Shown piece after piece: positions 8,418-16,238 of a stretch of DNA of 64,000 nucleotides. This stretch comes from Sphingobacteriaceae bacterium (GTDB taxonomy: Bacteria > Bacteroidota > Bacteroidia > B-17B0 > Aurantibacillaceae): the NCBI GenBank assembly GCA_002319075.1, contig NVQB01000001.1:434001-498000 (forward strand). The letters are read 5' to 3'. Below the pieces are notes generated by a model that did no database searches, was not told the origin of the DNA, and worked only from the letters and a program-made list of their open reading frames with translations. The translations under genes and the position numbers were made by a program. Every line of letters starts with the position of its first letter. Positions within the stretch are counted from its first letter, which is position 1.

Positions 8418-10370
8418 TTAACTAAGCCTTTTTAAATGTAATTCTTTTGGTTGTTTTATCACCATCGGGAATTTTTCAATTTTCACAGAGCTACTATCCA
8501 AGCCAAAGGCTTTAGCTTCACTTAAACTGAAACGTTTTAAAAAGAAATAAATAGTAAGCACTACTTTCTCAAACATAGGCAGATCATTTTCATACGAGAG
8601 AAATTTCTCCAATACCACAAATTTAAAATCACCAATCACATTATTTTTATTGAGAGATTCATAGCGACTTGTTATATCCACTTCTCCATTCTTTACAAGA
8701 TCTTCTACCACTTTACGAAACATTAAATTAATTCTTGGCGCTATTCTGAAACCTAGTTTAAAGTCAATGCGAATGATATCATTATCCGCTATATGCGTTA
8801 CTTTATAATCCATGCGGTAAGGCTCATTCATCACGTCTACATGCACAAACCAATATACATCCGCTTTTTTAGGGCGCTTTTGAAGAATGGAATAAATTAT
8901 CTTGGCTTCTATTTCCTCAGGATTATTTGCACCTGTCATATACACAAGATGTGTAGCATATTTTTGTAAGGAATCGTCATTACTCAGGTCGATCAGCATT
9001 TGTTTATGATCGTCAAATTTCACCATGTCCACATACCTGTTGCGGATTTTTTTAGCCAAATGCCACACGGTCATTACTGACATTAGTGTGCAGGCAATTA
9101 ATAAAGTGATCCACCCACCATGTGTAAATTTGCTAAGATTGGCGTAAAGAAAACCAGACTCAATTATGAGATAAAGCGTAATTGTGAAGTAGATAAAAAT
9201 TGGATTATAACGCTTCAAATGCATGTAGAAATTTAAAAGTGTGGTGGTCATTAACATACATAATACAATAGCCAGGCCATACGCTGCCTCCATATTTGCC
9301 GACTCCCTGAAATATAAAACCACCATGATACAACCTGCTAACAATAACCAGTTGAGCGAAGGAATATAAATTTGTCCCCGCAACACAGTAGGATATTTTA
9401 CCTCCACCTTAGGCCATAAATTAAGGCGCATAGCTTCATTTATCAGCGTGAAAGATCCGCTTATCAATGCCTGTGAGGCAATCACTGCTGCAATCGTAGC
9501 AATAACAATTCCGTAAGGCATAAAAGCTTCGGGCATAATTGCAAAGAAAGGATTGCTTGCTTTGAAAGATTCTAATTTTTCTCCCTGATGTGCAATTAAC
9601 CATGCACCCTGGCCAAAATAATTCAGCACGAGCATTGATTTTACAAATATCCACGATACCCGAATATTTCCTTTGCCGCAATGCCCCAGGTCAGAGTACA
9701 ACGCTTCTGCACCTGTTGTGCATAAAAAAACGGAACCAAGAATTAAGATTCCAAGAGGATGAGTTTGTAATAATTTATAAGTGTAGTAAGGATTTAAAGC
9801 TTCTAAAACAGACCAGTCTGTAGAAAGCTGAGTGATTCCAAGCACTCCCAGCATCAAAAACCAAATAGTCATTAGCGGACCGAAAAATTTGCCAATAAAA
9901 CCCGTCCCAAATTGCTGAATAAAAAACAAACCACATATAATTCCAATAACAATAGGTACGGTGTTAAGTTCAGGACTAAAAAACCGTAAGCCTTCTACAG
10001 CGGCGGCCACTGAAATTGGAGGTGTAATAATTCCATCAGCCAGTAAGGCGCTTCCCCCAATAATAGCTGGAACGATGAGCCATTTATATTTGCTGCGCCT
10101 TACCAAAGTAAACAGTGAAAAAATTCCGCCTTCACCGTTATTGTCAGCCCTTAAAGTTAAGATCACATACTTAATTGTTGTTTGAAGCGTTAACGTCCAG
10201 AATACCGCTGAGATAGCGCCCTTAACAATATTAGCATCGATAGCTCCCTTACCAATGATAGCGCTCATTACGTAAAGAGGCGAAGTTCCGATGTCACCAT
10301 AAATAATTCCAAGTGTAATAAGTAATCCTGCGAACGTTACTTTATTAATGCCGTGATGTTGTGTTGTCAT
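8418..10370 (-). CDS. kup: KUP-family low-affinity potassium transporter
   Basis: Inner-membrane potassium uptake protein of 650 residues, the normal length for the family. The N-terminal half carries about twelve membrane helices, including the family signature GDIGTSPLY at 25-33, NGEGGIFSL at about 76-84, and IITPPISV. The last 200 residues form the soluble C-terminal domain (KKADVYWFVHVDVMNEPYRMDY). KUP proteins import K+ with protons. It sits 17 bp after kdpE and 30 bp before the sigma-54 activator, so it is probably cotranscribed with both. This places a constitutive-type potassium importer under what look like Kdp-type regulators. An upstream ATG at 10370 fits the family start. Confidence 0.95.
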   Translation of the reverse strand: MTTQHHGINKVTFAGLLITLGIIYGDIGTSPLYVMSAIIGKGAIDANIVKGAISAVFWTLTLQTTIKYVILTLRADNNGEGGIFSLFTLVRRSKYKWLIVPAIIGGSALLADGIITPPISVAAAVEGLRFFSPELNTVPIVIGIICGLFFIQQFGTGFIGKFFGPLMTIWFLMLGVLGITQLSTDWSVLEALNPYYTYKLLQTHPLGILILGSVFLCTTGAEALYSDLGHCGKGNIRVSWIFVKSMLVLNYFGQGAWLIAHQGEKLESFKASNPFFAIMPEAFMPYGIVIATIAAVIASQALISGSFTLINEAMRLNLWPKVEVKYPTVLRGQIYIPSLNWLLLAGCIMVVLYFRESANMEAAYGLAIVLCMLMTTTLLNFYMHLKRYNPIFIYFTITLYLIIESGFLYANLSKFTHGGWITLLIACTLMSVMTVWHLAKKIRNRYVDMVKFDDHKQMLIDLSNDDSLQKYATHLVYMTGANNPEEIEAKIIYSILQKRPKKADVYWFVHVDVMNEPYRMDYKVTHIADNDIIRIDFKLGFRIAPRINLMFRKVVEDLVKNGEVDITSRYESLNKNNVIGDFKFVVLEKFLSYENDLPMFEKVVLTIYFFLKRFSLSEAKAFGLDSSSVKIEKFPMVIKQPKELHLKRLS

Positions 10371-10387
10371 TTTAGATCTTTCTGTTT

Positions 10388-11068
10388 TTAATTTTCTTTT
10401 GCAACGAAACGGTAGCCTACACCCGATTCAGTTAATATGTATTCAGGACGGTTAGGTTCCGTTTCTATTTTTTTTCGGAGTTGATTTACGAAAACTCTGA
10501 GGTACTGAGACTGGTCTATGTAACCAGGTCCCCATACTTCGCGTAATAAATAGTGATGCGTCAATACACGACCTTCATTTTTTGCGAACAGTATCAATAA
10601 ATCATACTCTGTTGCCGTAAGTTTAATGGGTTCCCCATTTTTTTTCACAATGCGCAAATTGATGTCAATAAAGAGGTCTGCTTTCGATTCTACGGCAACA
10701 TCTTGCAGAGTGCGCAAAGATGAACGCAGTCTCGCCAATAGTTCCCCGGTTCTGAATGGCTTTACGAGATAATCGTTTGCTCCGTTATCCAGAGCTTTCA
10801 CAATATCTTCTTCACTACTTTGAGCAGATAAAATGATTATGGGTTTTGTATACCAGGCTCTTAATTTTTTCAGAAGCTCATGGCCGTTTTCATCTGGCAG
10901 TCCTAGATCAAGTAAGATAAGATCAGGATTTACTTTCTTAGCCTGAAGCATTCCCTCTGAAGCATTCAAGGCACTACTCACTACAAAGTCGTTTGTCTGA
11001 AGGGTGATCTTTAGCAATTTTTGAATTTGCTCTTCATCATCGATCACTAATATTTCTGGCCTGTTCAT
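10388..11068 (-). CDS. kdpE: KdpE-like OmpR-family response regulator
   Basis: Response regulator of 226 residues: receiver domain (about 1-120) with D10, D11 and phospho-acceptor D54 in LLDLGLPDENG, conserved K in NDYLVKPF, then an OmpR/PhoB winged helix (about 128-224) ending TESGVGYRFV. In E. coli KdpE activates the kdpFABC potassium ATPase; here the only potassium transporter next to it is kup. Its ATG overlaps the stop codon of the kinase gene by 4 bp (ATGA), the standard translational coupling of a two-component pair. A direct 11-bp repeat in front of the operon (12189-12210) is a possible binding site. Confidence 0.88.
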   Translation of the reverse strand: MNRPEILVIDDEEQIQKLLKITLQTNDFVVSSALNASEGMLQAKKVNPDLILLDLGLPDENGHELLKKLRAWYTKPIIILSAQSSEEDIVKALDNGANDYLVKPFRTGELLARLRSSLRTLQDVAVESKADLFIDINLRIVKKNGEPIKLTATEYDLLILFAKNEGRVLTHHYLLREVWGPGYIDQSQYLRVFVNQLRKKIETEPNRPEYILTESGVGYRFVAKEN

Positions 11069-12147
11069 ACTTTTGTAGTTGCTTTCATATAGGATAATTC
11101 AGAGGGAATTTCTACTGTAAACACAGCGCCGCCATCTGGCATGTTCTGTAAACGAATCTCACCTTTCATGGCTTCCACAAAACCCTTTACAATCGACAAT
11201 CCCAGGCCCGTTCCACCTGTTCCCGAATTTTTTAGCCGGTAAAATTTTTCAAATACCTTTTCTATTTCTCCCTCAGGAAAACCATTGCCGGTATCCTCCA
11301 CAACTAGAACCAGCTTATCTTCCTTACAAAAGGCCCTAACGGTAATTACCGCATATTTTGGCAAGTACGTAATAGCATTGTGTACTAAATTGTGTAAAAC
11401 CTGGAAAAGCAAACCATAATCCAAACGAAACAATGGAAGATTATCTTTGATAGCAACATGCACGGGGTTACCCTTTAAATTATCCTTAAGTTGATTTAAA
11501 ACATCGTAAATTAATTCACCCACATCAAACCAATCTGATTTGGGCTGAATAACGCCTGATTCCAGACGTGACATGTTTAGTAAATTACCTACCTGTCGGT
11601 TTAATTGCAACGAGGCCTTAGATATTTCCGATACCAATTCATATTTATTGACTTCCGTTAATTTATCCGCCATGGTTTGTAAATTATCAGAGGCTCCTAT
11701 TATAGTTGATATCGGAGTTCTCAATTCGTGAGATAAAGAATTTAACAAAGTATTATAAAGTTTCAATGTATTTTCTTTTTCCTCTTTTTGATTCGCAGCC
11801 TTTTCAATCTTGCGTATTTTGGCAGTTAACACGGCATTCACCAGGGCAATCACAAAATACATAAGAAACATCAAAGAGTCTTCAGCACCTTTTATGGTTA
11901 ACGTAAATTTGGGAGGAATAAAAAAGAAATTCCAGAGAAGCGCACTCGCTATAGCAGCGGTTAACACGGCTCCAATCTCGAAGAACATGGCAATGAGCGA
12001 TACCGTAACCATTAATATCAAAGCCACAACTCTGTAACCGATTAAACCGGTAAAAAAATAGCAGGTAATAGATATAAGCAGAACGAACAGTAAACTTAGC
12101 GCGTAGTGTTTATTTAGACTTAATTTCCTAAAAGAGAAAGCTTCCAA
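11065..12147 (-). CDS. kdpD: KdpD-like histidine kinase lacking the N-terminal KdpD/USP sensor region
   Basis: Sensor kinase of 360 residues, far shorter than the about 890 of E. coli KdpD. It retains the four-helix DUF4118-type membrane block (about 15-108), a coiled linker, HisKA with H140 in SLSHELRTP and an HATPase domain (NLVHNAITYLP, DTGNGFP, GTGLGLSIVKGF). The cytoplasmic KdpD and USP domains that bind K+ and c-di-AMP in full-length KdpD are absent. No ATG exists near the start; TTG at 12147, preceded by A-rich sequence and a good TAGCTTTG promoter element, is the likely initiator. First gene of the probable kdpD-kdpE-kup-ntrC operon. Confidence 0.85.
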   Translation of the reverse strand: MEAFSFRKLSLNKHYALSLLFVLLISITCYFFTGLIGYRVVALILMVTVSLIAMFFEIGAVLTAAIASALLWNFFFIPPKFTLTIKGAEDSLMFLMYFVIALVNAVLTAKIRKIEKAANQKEEKENTLKLYNTLLNSLSHELRTPISTIIGASDNLQTMADKLTEVNKYELVSEISKASLQLNRQVGNLLNMSRLESGVIQPKSDWFDVGELIYDVLNQLKDNLKGNPVHVAIKDNLPLFRLDYGLLFQVLHNLVHNAITYLPKYAVITVRAFCKEDKLVLVVEDTGNGFPEGEIEKVFEKFYRLKNSGTGGTGLGLSIVKGFVEAMKGEIRLQNMPDGGAVFTVEIPSELSYMKATTKV

Positions 12148-12645: not shown

Positions 12646-13350
12646 TCAATACAAATTAGCAATCTTCGAAATCTCTAAAGCATTTTTTAAAATGATTTTT
12701 CTTCCATTGATCTCTATTAAATTTTCTACTTTAAAGTCACGAAGTAATCTGGTTAATGTTTCCCTGGCAGTACCAACCATATTAGCGAGATCATCGCGCG
12801 ATAGTGTTAATTCAACAGGTTTTCCGTCCTGATCTTCTCTTTTGTATTTGTCTCTTAGAATAAGTAAACTCAGTGCCAGGCGCTCCCGCACCGTGCGTTG
12901 AGCAAAAATTGTGATACTATTTACCAGAACACCAAATTCATGACTCATACATTTAAGTAAGCGGTTCGAAAGTATAGAAGACGTTTGAATAGCTTTTAAA
13001 AAATCATCTTTAGGTATAAAAGACACTGTTGCTTCGTCCAGCGCACTGGAGCTGTCTGTGTAATGTTCGTCGCTTATCAAAGCGTGATAGCCTAATAGCT
13101 CACCGCTTTTACAAACATAAAATATCTGTTCCCGTCCTTCTTTATCTGTTTTATATTTTTTTACTTTTCCTTTTGTGATATAATAAATTCCTGTTGGGTA
13201 ACCGCCTTCTCTGAACAAGCGTTCACCCTTCTTATAAATATGCGTTATCATATTTTTTTTCAGAAGTCGAAGATCTTCTTCGGGTAAATCATCCAGGATA
13301 AAATCGCTGTTGAAATTATATTTGTCAAAAGGAAAATCGATGCTTTGCAT
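12646..13350 (-). CDS. CRP/FNR-family transcription regulator with a CRP-type recognition helix
   Basis: Regulator of 234 residues: cyclic-nucleotide-binding-type beta roll (about 35-125; KKGERLFREGGYPTGIYYITKGKVKKYK), long dimer helix (about 135-165) and winged HTH (about 175-230; LSRDDLANMVGTARETLTRLLRDF). The recognition helix has R-E-T-x-x-R, as in E. coli CRP (RETVGR), not the FNR pattern, and the N terminus lacks FNR-type cysteines. The beta roll lacks the cAMP-binding RxS signature of CRP at the expected place, so the ligand is unknown. A perfect TGTGA-N6-TCACA site stands 58 bp upstream of its ATG, between it and the divergent serine palmitoyltransferase gene. Confidence 0.88.
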   Translation of the reverse strand: MQSIDFPFDKYNFNSDFILDDLPEEDLRLLKKNMITHIYKKGERLFREGGYPTGIYYITKGKVKKYKTDKEGREQIFYVCKSGELLGYHALISDEHYTDSSSALDEATVSFIPKDDFLKAIQTSSILSNRLLKCMSHEFGVLVNSITIFAQRTVRERLALSLLILRDKYKREDQDGKPVELTLSRDDLANMVGTARETLTRLLRDFKVENLIEINGRKIILKNALEISKIANLY

Positions 13351-13407
13351 TTCTCTGAGGCTTGTCCTTAAAGGATGTAAAGCTACTGGTTCTGATCCAG
13401 CTTACCT

Positions 13408-13429
13408 AAATGTGACTTATATCACATTT
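13408..13429. promoter_or_regulatory. perfect CRP-type operator in a divergent promoter region
   Basis: A 22-bp inverted repeat AAATGTGA-N6-TCACATTT, identical to the E. coli CRP core TGTGA-N6-TCACA. It is centred about 48 bp upstream of the predicted start for the CRP-family gene (TAGCTTTA at 13377-13384 on the minus strand) and about 90 bp upstream of that for the serine palmitoyltransferase gene. Confidence 0.75.
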
Positions 13430-13493
13430 AAGCTCCTGTAAAAATCACAGTTTAACCGCGCTCAATGTCCTGGTATAGGCAGGATAACACAAA

Positions 13494-13501
13494 TATCTTT
13501 G
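13494..13501 (+). promoter_or_regulatory. Bacteroidota -7 promoter element for the serine palmitoyltransferase gene
   Basis: TATCTTTG matches TAnnTTTG and lies 18 bp before the ATG at 13520. There is no clear TTTG at -33, consistent with dependence on an activator bound at 13408-13429. Confidence 0.45.
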
Positions 13502-13519
13502 TGACTTAAGTATTTAAAG

Positions 13520-14776
13520 ATGAATATTCTCGAAAAAATTAATTCAAAAAGAGGTCCTCTTGGCGATCATGCTCACTACGCTCATGGATATTACACGTTT
13601 CCCAAGCTCGAGGGCGAAATTGGACATAAAATGATCTTTAAGGGAAAAGAAAACCTGGTTTGGAGCCTTAACAATTATTTGGGGCTGGCGAATCATCCGG
13701 AAATAAGAGAAGCCGATGAAACCGGGGCATCTCTTTACGGTTTAGCTTATCCTATGGGTGCGAGAATGATGACCGGCAACTCCAATTTACATGAACGATT
13801 GGAAGCAGAGCTTTCTATTTTTGTAAAAAAAGAAGACACCTGTCTCTTAAATTACGGGTATCAGGGTATGATTTCCATCATTGATTGTTTAGTAGACAGG
13901 CACGATGTAATTGTATACGACGCAGAAGCACATGCATGTATCATTGATGGATTGAGATTACATATAGGAAAGCACTTTGTTTACAAACACAACGATATAG
14001 AGAACTTAGAAAAACAATTGGAACATGCAAAGCATGTGTGTTCAAAAACCGGAGGTGGAATTTTACTGATTACAGAAGGAGTTTTTGGCATGCGCGGCGA
14101 TATGGGAAAACTAAAGGAAATAGCAGCGCTCAAGAAAAAATATGATTTCACGTTTCTAGTAGATGATGCCCATGGCATTGGAGTTATGGGAAACAACGGC
14201 GGCGGCACTGGCGAGGAGCAGGGAGTTCAAAAAGATATTGATTTGTATTTTGGAACTTTTGCAAAAGCGTTTGCCGCCATAGGCGCCTTCGTTTCTGGAA
14301 ACAAAAACGTGATGGAATACCTGCGTTATAATATGCGTTCACAAATTTTTGCTAAATCTTTACCAATGCCCCTGGTCTATGGACTTTTAAAGAGGTTAGA
14401 ACTCATTCGCAGAACAGATGGATTAAGATACAGCTTGTGGGAGATAACAAGGGAGCTGCAAAATGGATTAAAGATGGCAGGCCTGAATATTGGTAATACA
14501 GAAACACCTGTTACTCCTGTGTATCTGAATGGCACTATTACTGAAGCTACTGAACTCGTGAAAGACCTGCGCGAAAACCATCGCATATTTTGTTCTATGG
14601 TGGTTTATCCTGTTGTGCCAAAGGGCATTATTATTCTAAGACTAATACCCACGGCAGTTCATACCAAAGCCGATGTTAAAAAAACACTGGATGTATTTTC
14701 AGAGATAAATGAAAATTTAATCAAAGGAAAATATTCAAATAAGAATTCCGTTGTAAGCTACGCCACCAATCTTTAA
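13520..14776 (+). CDS. spt: serine palmitoyltransferase-type alpha-oxoamine synthase
   Basis: PLP enzyme of 418 residues that condenses an amino acid with an acyl thioester; in Bacteroidota close relatives join serine and a fatty acyl group as the first step of sphingolipid synthesis. Seen: LNNYLGLANHP at 50-60, GARMMTGN at 80-87, a stacking-histidine region (DAEAHACIIDG at 134-144), the PLP aspartate motif VDDAHG at 214-219, and the Schiff-base lysine K249 in GTFAKAF. The overall pattern, including AHGYYTFPKLEGEI at the N terminus, matches Bacteroidota Spt better than KBL or BioF. A cysteate-using homologue (sulfonolipid synthesis) is the main alternative. It diverges from a CRP-family gene across a consensus CRP site. 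Confidence 0.85.
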   Translation: MNILEKINSKRGPLGDHAHYAHGYYTFPKLEGEIGHKMIFKGKENLVWSLNNYLGLANHPEIREADETGASLYGLAYPMGARMMTGNSNLHERLEAELSIFVKKEDTCLLNYGYQGMISIIDCLVDRHDVIVYDAEAHACIIDGLRLHIGKHFVYKHNDIENLEKQLEHAKHVCSKTGGGILLITEGVFGMRGDMGKLKEIAALKKKYDFTFLVDDAHGIGVMGNNGGGTGEEQGVQKDIDLYFGTFAKAFAAIGAFVSGNKNVMEYLRYNMRSQIFAKSLPMPLVYGLLKRLELIRRTDGLRYSLWEITRELQNGLKMAGLNIGNTETPVTPVYLNGTITEATELVKDLRENHRIFCSMVVYPVVPKGIIILRLIPTAVHTKADVKKTLDVFSEINENLIKGKYSNKNSVVSYATNL

Positions 14777-14808: not shown

Positions 14809-15054
14809 ATGATAAATTTCTCGAAACAGTTCACTATAAACCTCACTGAAGGCAAGGTTGCTTGTTTAAAAAAAGGCATGACCAAACAAGAAGTGATTAC
14901 GATTCTTGGAAATCCCGTGAAGATTGAAAATTGCAAAAACATCTGCAACGAAAAATTGGTCTTTAAAATAAATGGCCACCAGGTTGTTCGCGGTTCTACT
15001 TATACACTTTTATTTACAAGAGAGCAGTTAGTTTACGTAGCCAAAGTGAATTGA
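14809..15054 (+). CDS. small BamE/SmpA-like domain protein
   Basis: Protein of 81 residues. The core LKKGMTKQEVITILGNPVKIE ... LVFKINGH ... YTLLFTREQLVYVAKV has the spacing of the BamE/OmlA (SmpA) fold: a helix starting G-M-T, a GxP turn and strands ending in a lysine-valine strand. No signal peptide or lipobox is present, unlike BamE itself, so it probably stays in the cytoplasm. It lies 32 bp after the serine palmitoyltransferase gene on the same strand and may be cotranscribed. Partner and function unknown. Confidence 0.7.
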   Translation: MINFSKQFTINLTEGKVACLKKGMTKQEVITILGNPVKIENCKNICNEKLVFKINGHQVVRGSTYTLLFTREQLVYVAKVN

Positions 15055-15103: not shown

Positions 15104-15736
15104 ATGAACGAATTCGCAGAAAAAAAGAAAATAAGAAACTTCCCTGTACTAAAAACAATTTTTAAGGAGAAGCATGTGACGGAGGAAAATTTTAGTCAAC
15201 TCCTTCCTGACTATTTACAGAAGGCTTCAAGGCTCTACTTTACCCCAGTGCATGTTGCGAGAATGGCAGCTCAGTGGCTAACGGAGACAGGAGAAAAAAA
15301 GATCCTGGACATTGGTGCTGGGATAGGAAAGTTTTGCATTGTGGGCGCGAAATACTCTGATAGTCACTTCTACGGTATAGAATACCGCCCTAGCCTTGTT
15401 AAATTAGCAAACGAACTTATAAAGCATTACCAGATAGAAAATGCTACCGTTTTACAAAACAACGTAACCGAAGTGAATTTTGAAAACTATGACGCTTTCT
15501 ATTTGTACAATCCTTTTTACGAGAACCTTGTAGCATCACACCGCTTAAATAGTGAGGTTCTCCTTTCTGGTCCTTTGTATGGCAATTATTTAAAGTACAC
15601 GGAATATCAGTTAGACAAAACTAAAACAGGAACAAGACTGGTGACCTATCATGGGAATAATTTTGAAATACCTGATTCTTTTGAGAAAATAAAGGAATCG
15701 GAAGATAGTTCGCTAAAGCTTTGGTTAAGGAAATAG
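15104..15736 (+). CDS. class I SAM-dependent methyltransferase
   Basis: Protein of 210 residues with a Rossmann methyltransferase fold: motif I KILDIGAGIGKFCIVGA (about 65-81), acidic end of strand 2 in FYGIEYRPSLVKLA, and motif IV YDAFYLYNPFYEN, where NPFY stands in the place of the NPPY of N-methyltransferases. The region before the fold (LPDYLQKASRLYFTPVHVARMAAQWL) helps to cap the active site in related enzymes. The substrate cannot be named. It is the third gene in a same-strand run after the serine palmitoyltransferase and the BamE-like gene, so an action on a lipid or amine intermediate is possible but not shown. Confidence 0.75.
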   Translation: MNEFAEKKKIRNFPVLKTIFKEKHVTEENFSQLLPDYLQKASRLYFTPVHVARMAAQWLTETGEKKILDIGAGIGKFCIVGAKYSDSHFYGIEYRPSLVKLANELIKHYQIENATVLQNNVTEVNFENYDAFYLYNPFYENLVASHRLNSEVLLSGPLYGNYLKYTEYQLDKTKTGTRLVTYHGNNFEIPDSFEKIKESEDSSLKLWLRK

Positions 15737-15809: not shown

Positions 15810-16238
15810 ATGAGCGTAAAAAAAATCATAAACTGGTTCAATCCATTTGCAAAGGGTAAAGTGCTGCGAAGTGTTTTTACTTTGACCTGCCCCCGTTGTC
15901 AGAAAGGACATTTGTTTACCGTTAAAAACCCTTTCCGTCTTAAATATTTGGACGATATGCCACACTATTGTTCTGAATGCGGAGAAGATTTTCAAAGGGA
16001 AATTGGTTTTTATTACGGAGCAATGATGATAAGCCATGCCTCTACCACGCTTATTGCTGTGGTCGTGCACATCATTATATTTTATTTTTATGGATGGGCG
16101 CTGGCTCCAAATCTCATTTCAATTACAGTTATTCTTGTGGGATTATTTCCCGTAATTTTTAGAACATCAAGAGCCATTTGGATTAATATGTTTAGTACCT
16201 ATGATGCCTCTGCTACTCAACATAAGATTATTCGTTAA
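15810..16238 (+). CDS. DUF983 membrane protein with a zinc ribbon
   Basis: Protein of 142 residues. Two CxxC pairs (CPRCQKGHLF and YCSECGEDF) form a likely zinc ribbon at about 29-60, followed by two membrane helices (about 70-125). This is the DUF983 arrangement. It ends the rightward run that began with serine palmitoyltransferase and converges with mgtE. Function unknown. Confidence 0.85.
   Translation: MSVKKIINWFNPFAKGKVLRSVFTLTCPRCQKGHLFTVKNPFRLKYLDDMPHYCSECGEDFQREIGFYYGAMMISHASTTLIAVVVHIIIFYFYGWALAPNLISITVILVGLFPVIFRTSRAIWINMFSTYDASATQHKIIR

Follow-up and report, generated by a model that had tools for sequence, protein, structure and literature searches.

A candidate two-way Crp-type operator, spaced in steps from a divergent promoter, beside a Crp/Fnr-family regulator gene of Bacteroidota

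The closest described systems are those of Escherichia coli CRP, known from class II (-41.5) and tandem-site promoters, and of FNR, whose half-site is of the TTGA type, with the half-site base following the CRP R180/FNR V208 rule. The locus described here resembles that of CRP in the fold of its regulator, in the residues equivalent to R180, E181 and R185, in a TGTGA-N6-TCACA dyad and in a predicted step at -41.5. However, the regulator lacks the cAMP contacts, a single dyad is accompanied by half-sites repeated at 23 bp, the target is apparently local rather than a global regulon, and the promoters have the Bacteroidota -7 box. The beta-roll sequence of the regulator is FNR-like and its homologues with V196 have TTGA-type dyads (compare FNR V208), but the four cluster cysteines of FNR are absent and the half-site position holds the CRP-type G. 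CrpPg of Porphyromonas gingivalis is characterised, in PMC12040651, as a cAMP-independent Crp homologue which binds DNA without cyclic nucleotide and as a global regulator; both are Bacteroidota Crp/Fnr proteins, and we liken them by family, not by orthology. On the enzyme side, the comparison is with SulA of Alistipes finegoldii, which Lys281 sets apart from Spt according to PMC9304779 (the PDB code 7u7h is mentioned there as well), and with PDB entry 28eh. The SulA-specific Lys281 corresponds to K279 in the protein studied here which, unlike SulA, is a second paralogue inside a putatively regulated divergent operon. For promoters we used the Bacteroidota -7 box consensus TAnnTTTG, placed at -12 to -5 in PMC9723704. 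A literature search joining sulfonolipid, Crp and transcriptional regulator found no paper, and searches on tandem Crp sites or a divergent Bacteroidota operon gave no matching title among the titles listed.

The window (i.e., the whole stretch of DNA that was analysed, 64,000 nucleotides) contains the following features around a 169-bp intergenic gap:

12646–13350, minus strand: Crp/Fnr-family regulator, 234 aa, recognition helix R196-E197-T-L-T-R201 (AlphaFold model, Foldseek)
13378–13385, minus strand: the regulator's own -7-like box, TAGCTTTA, with 7 of 8 matches to the consensus
13408–13429, no strand assigned: Crp-type dyad AAATGTGA-N6-TCACATTT, core 13411–13426, centre 13418.5
13445–13449, minus strand: half-site TGTGA, 23 bp (one step) away from the dyad and predicted to be centred at -64.5 from the divergent start; its column block is conserved in the 11 aligned loci
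13467–13470, minus strand: third step, GGAC, degenerate in the window and TTGAY-like in relatives, predicted centre -41.5
13494–13501, plus strand: divergent -7 box, TATCTTTG, a consensus match ending 83 bp from the dyad centre
13520–14776, plus strand: predicted cysteate acyltransferase paralogue (SulA/CFAT type; cfat), from profile scores, solved relatives and the diagnostic Lys
14809–15054, plus strand: small BamE-domain protein, next gene downstream (domain search; homologues in related operons)
15104–15736, plus strand: class I methyltransferase, often encoded near the regulator gene in relatives (domain search, locus comparison)
15810–16238, plus strand: DUF983 protein (domain search), with a homologue close to the L072 operon and, on visual inspection, also near those of L152 and L153

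The dyad lies between the regulator gene and the plus-strand gene at 13520–14776, where the 22-mer AAATGTGACTTATATCACATTT (13408–13429) encloses the core TGTGACTTATATCACA (13411–13426). The initial annotation had called it a full palindrome, a wording which proved slightly too strong: the two 8-bp arms are perfect, but the 6-bp spacer is only partly symmetric (18 of 22 bases symmetric). An exact TGTGAN6TCACA would be expected by chance about 0.00015 times in a 169-bp gap. Across the 5.65-Mb genome it occurs 11 times vs. 5 times for a reversed-pattern control, and since the W-flanked form and its control both occur once genome-wide, such counts alone are weak to modest evidence. The real test of the dyad is conservation, not counting.

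We compared orthologous loci (regulators with at least 65% identity) from 12 distinct genomes, namely G000, G001 and L071–L080, with G011, G021 and G017 recurring as L072, L075 and L076. The dyad was exact in 8 of the 12, including L073, and had one mismatch in L072, these two being relatives with the same gene pair, in which the initial annotation had proposed to look for the palindrome. There were two mismatches in L076 and three in L078, where the right arm is broken; among the 12 loci, L080 has the regulator with the dyad absent. The first divergent gene was cfat in G000, L072 and L073, pckA in L075 and L077, gcvH in L078, a spermidine-synthase-like gene in L071 and L076, a methyltransferase gene followed by a hydrogenase-4-like cluster in L074, and a thiolase gene followed by cfat in L079. 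Intact cfat was thus found in 4 of 12 loci. G001, the closest relative, whose regulator is 83% identical, has cfat only as a 5' remnant with a stop (L013:2389-2853), followed by a BamE-like gene, and yet the 22-bp dyad is unchanged. Chitinophagaceae-type loci have a methyltransferase homologue and a SulP transporter on the divergent side (L081–L084 and L086) or SulP only (L085). Because the first divergent gene varies among orthologues, the site is not specific to lipid synthesis, and a link read as exclusive to that process is not supported: the same putative operator precedes pckA, gcvH, thiolase, spermidine-synthase-like and methyltransferase genes. The predicted sulfonolipid link applies to this genome and, among the relatives, to a minority.

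The regulator consists of a cNMP-binding domain and a Crp helix-turn-helix (PF00027, PF13545 and PF00325, all above the Pfam cut-offs). Its AlphaFold model has a pLDDT of 83.8, and the nearest structures found by Foldseek were Crp/Fnr proteins including cAMP-binding CRPs (TM about 0.5), which adds family membership only; the score for the NCBIfam equivalog PRK11753 was 59.6 bits vs. a cut-off of 266. For the alignment, E. coli CRP and FNR were taken from NC_000913.3. The equivalents of CRP R180, E181 and R185 are R196, E197 and R201, invariant across 18 aligned sequences, and the R-E-T-x-x-R recognition helix that had been read from the window is present. Among the E. coli CRP residues which we take to contact cAMP (E72, R82, S83, T127 and S128), none of the five was kept in the alignment (Y88, T98, D99, L142 and V143 instead), and neither was any of the four FNR Fe–S cluster cysteines (C20, C23, C29 and C122 are replaced by F, Y, F and S). 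The conserved residues Y88 and H89 gave no pointer to an effector.

Residue 196 was found to covary with the operator. Specifically, 33 of 47 homologues have an upstream TGA-N6-TCA dyad, and a G precedes TGA in at least one half in 15 of 15 Arg196 homologues vs. 0 of 18 non-Arg homologues, those with V at this position having TTGA-type dyads. In a fresh homologue set (described below) the corresponding counts were 18 of 18 and 1 of 6, the single case being L196. On a helix-masked tree of 49 rows (13 without a base label; for L078 and the E. coli pair the label was assigned manually or from background information), there were 4 independent changes, every one of them concordant (sign test, p 0.125). 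By analogy, this Arg196–G covariation mirrors the CRP R180/FNR V208 rule. The dyad is most likely the operator of the adjacent Crp/Fnr-family regulator; conservation and covariation both lend support to the match between Crp-type operator and neighbouring regulator which had been suggested for the window. Six further Crp/Fnr homologues are encoded elsewhere in the source genome, and the main user of the site could in principle be one of them. We consider this very unlikely, given that two of the six (L048/L181 and L049) have K at the R196 position and TTGA-type dyads before their own genes, and that, from genome to genome, the site accompanies the orthologous regulator. The adjacent regulator is thus the user we favour. 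As a separate observation, a paralogue clade with a TAKET helix (L172, L173, L175, L180 and L181) has a near-perfect dyad of the TTGACAATTGTCAA type upstream of its Crp/Fnr gene, which constitutes a separate operator family.

With consensus matches taken as promoters and TAnnTTTG placed at -12 to -5, the dyad centre is predicted at -45.5 for the regulator and at -87.5 for the divergent gene, close to the positions of -48 and -90 given in the initial annotation. We measured spacing in 11 loci, of which L078 was re-anchored on its imperfect dyad and L076 read from the alignment. The distance from the dyad centre to the last base of the divergent TAnnTTT[GA] box was 83 bp in 9 of the 11 (82 bp in L072, 81 bp in L074), and the box was a perfect TAnnTTTG in 10 of the 11, L076 having TAAATTTA. 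On the regulator's own side, the spacing from dyad to -7-like box ranged from 18 to 47 bp where a box was found. Blocks of TGTGAYTTT and TTGAYTT were conserved 23 and 46 bp from the dyad in the 11 loci; as identity was 0.40 between blocks vs. 0.57 inside them, the spacing could partly be due to shared descent. For the window clade, this arrangement gives a predicted ladder at -87.5, -64.5 and -41.5 from the divergent start.

In related clades the dyad lies one or two steps nearer the divergent box. We took 22 of the 23 dyad-bearing homologues outside the window clade (L178, A/A, was omitted), together with dyad-less L080 and L086, other dyad-less rows being dropped. In 19 of the 22 dyad loci the box lay at 36–37 bp (8 loci) or 58–60 bp (11 loci), the exceptions being L167, at 136 bp, and L162 and L181, with none. 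The 36–37 bp distance, which places the dyad at a predicted -41 or thereabouts, is that of a paralogue clade, while 28 loci of the middle type have a weaker second site, GGTRAA-CC-TTATCAC, 22 bp nearer the promoter, at about -41.5.

The step positions were then fixed beforehand for the fresh set, drawn from 395 genomes of the class (largely overlapping the earlier ones) and 195 genomes of one family, which gave 34 new distinct homologues, 24 of them with a dyad. A divergent box was present within 20–160 bp in 19 of the 24, at 37 bp (2 loci), 59 bp (14) or 60 bp (3), meaning that 19 of 19 fell on predicted steps, although these matches are not independent because all come from one family. The opposite-orientation control gave 9 matches, scattered over 34–98 bp. 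No divergent box was found within 20–160 bp in 5 of the 24 dyad loci, among them all four from the class-wide search (L190, L196, L197 and L198). Having no new window-clade member, the set covers the 37 and 59–60 bp steps, not that at 81–83 bp. The regulator's own -7-like box started 16–20 bp from the dyad in 15 of the 24 loci.

The reading we prefer, to which we give a probability of roughly 0.7, is that the regulator's operator would work both ways, as an in-step ladder toward the divergent operon and as a site of autoregulation toward its own gene. If instead the site served autoregulation only, the divergent-promoter distance would be inherited and functionless. This would account for a dyad that follows the regulator whatever the neighbour and that persists beside the cfat remnant of G001, and for an own box which, in those 15 fresh loci, is at what would be a polymerase-blocking position. 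It is nevertheless unlikely in our view: window-clade loci keep the divergent spacing within 81–83 bp whereas their own-side spacing varies over 18–47 bp, half-sites lie between the dyad and the divergent box, and whole steps to that box are kept in other clades.

The gene on the divergent side had been named serine palmitoyltransferase (SPT), an assignment that we reject, since its product reached 292.2 bits on the NCBIfam model SerpalmtaseCFB (cut-off 640) and has Lys (K279) where the genome's true SPT has Ala. The genome holds five other members of the family, and one of these, at a separate locus and with 685.4 bits on SerpalmtaseCFB, is the predicted true SPT. Among solved structures, the closest to the window protein were 28eh, named cysteate-C-fatty acyltransferase, and 7u7h (both E about 1e-165). 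Its PLP-lysine is K249, and K279, 30 residues further on, is the equivalent of SulA Lys281. As predicted from sequence, the product is a second cysteate acyltransferase of the sulfonolipid pathway, which would condense cysteate with acyl-ACP, so the alternative of sulfonolipid synthesis, mentioned in the initial annotation, was the right one for this genome. Another cysteate acyltransferase-like gene of the genome is 65% identical to it, and the 120 bp examined upstream of that gene contain no TGA-N6-TCA dyad. Because the cfat copies in relatives' putatively regulated operons are 80–82% identical to the window copy, the latter looks like a separate paralogue line.

We also scanned 11 genomes for TGTGAYNWWARTCACA with at most one mismatch, a threshold for which the L076 and L078 dyads are too divergent, and examined the context for part of the listed places. 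Among the loci examined, the combination of dyad, half-site and box at 81–83 bp occurred at the regulator locus only. These results bear on the idea of a true cAMP-CRP-like catabolite switch on sphingolipid synthesis, which has in its favour the Crp-type site, the CRP-like recognition helix and the Foldseek matches to cAMP-binding CRPs. We regard such a switch as extremely improbable: all five of the cAMP contact positions checked differ, leaving a cAMP-type signal unsupported, the divergent gene is not SPT, relatives differ in their first divergent gene, and the full signature is confined to this locus among those examined.

Returning to the two-way operator, its sequence features are conservation, fixed spacing, Arg196–G covariation, absence of the cAMP and Fe–S residues and the predicted enzyme identity; binding, cooperative filling and activation as opposed to repression are what we infer. 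The adjacent regulator would bind the dyad as its high-affinity operator and may fill the weaker sites stepwise, presumably cooperatively, toward -41.5. Arrival at this class II activating position would most likely activate the divergent operon. On the regulator's own side, the dyad is at the promoter or slightly upstream of it; the regulator would probably limit its own transcription, and autorepression is suggested by relatives that have the dyad at about -31. The regulated unit would be a promoter module rather than a set gene list, here with the second cysteate acyltransferase as its first gene. More tentatively, and at somewhat less than even odds, we propose that operators of this Bacteroidota Crp/Fnr group shift solely by whole steps of about 22–23 bp on a ladder anchored at the promoter (-41.5, about -64 and -87.5), that the strongest dyad nucleates a head-to-tail dimer stack reaching -41.5, and that the genes behind an unchanging promoter module are swapped, in this lineage for a dedicated second sulfonolipid synthase. 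If true, this would provide a sequence-readable rule for a large and little-studied set of Bacteroidota regulators, in which the operator base could be read from residue 196 and the number of cooperating sites from the distance to the -7 box, as well as a handle on the control of sulfonolipid synthesis.

Several further observations were made. In G064 (L108), a perfect dyad lies 60 bp upstream of an ORF that we take to be PhnA-like, with the box off the ladder at a distance of 42, and a similar ORF (L150:12014-12571) is found near the putatively regulated operon in G067. In G065, one-mismatch TGTGA-type dyads occur upstream of ORFs at L097, L122 and L125, presumably encoding a pyridine nucleotide-disulfide oxidoreductase, a rhodanese and a rhodanese/beta-lactamase-fold protein, respectively, hinting at sulfur metabolism. 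Elsewhere in the window (8418–12147), a potassium transporter ORF (presumably Kup-like), a response regulator ORF (presumably KdpE-like) and a DUF4118 sensor kinase stand in a row. The best NCBIfam match of the kinase was the C-terminal part of KdpD, below the cut-off; the arrangement places a shortened kinase of the KdpD type next to a potassium transporter that is not Kdp.
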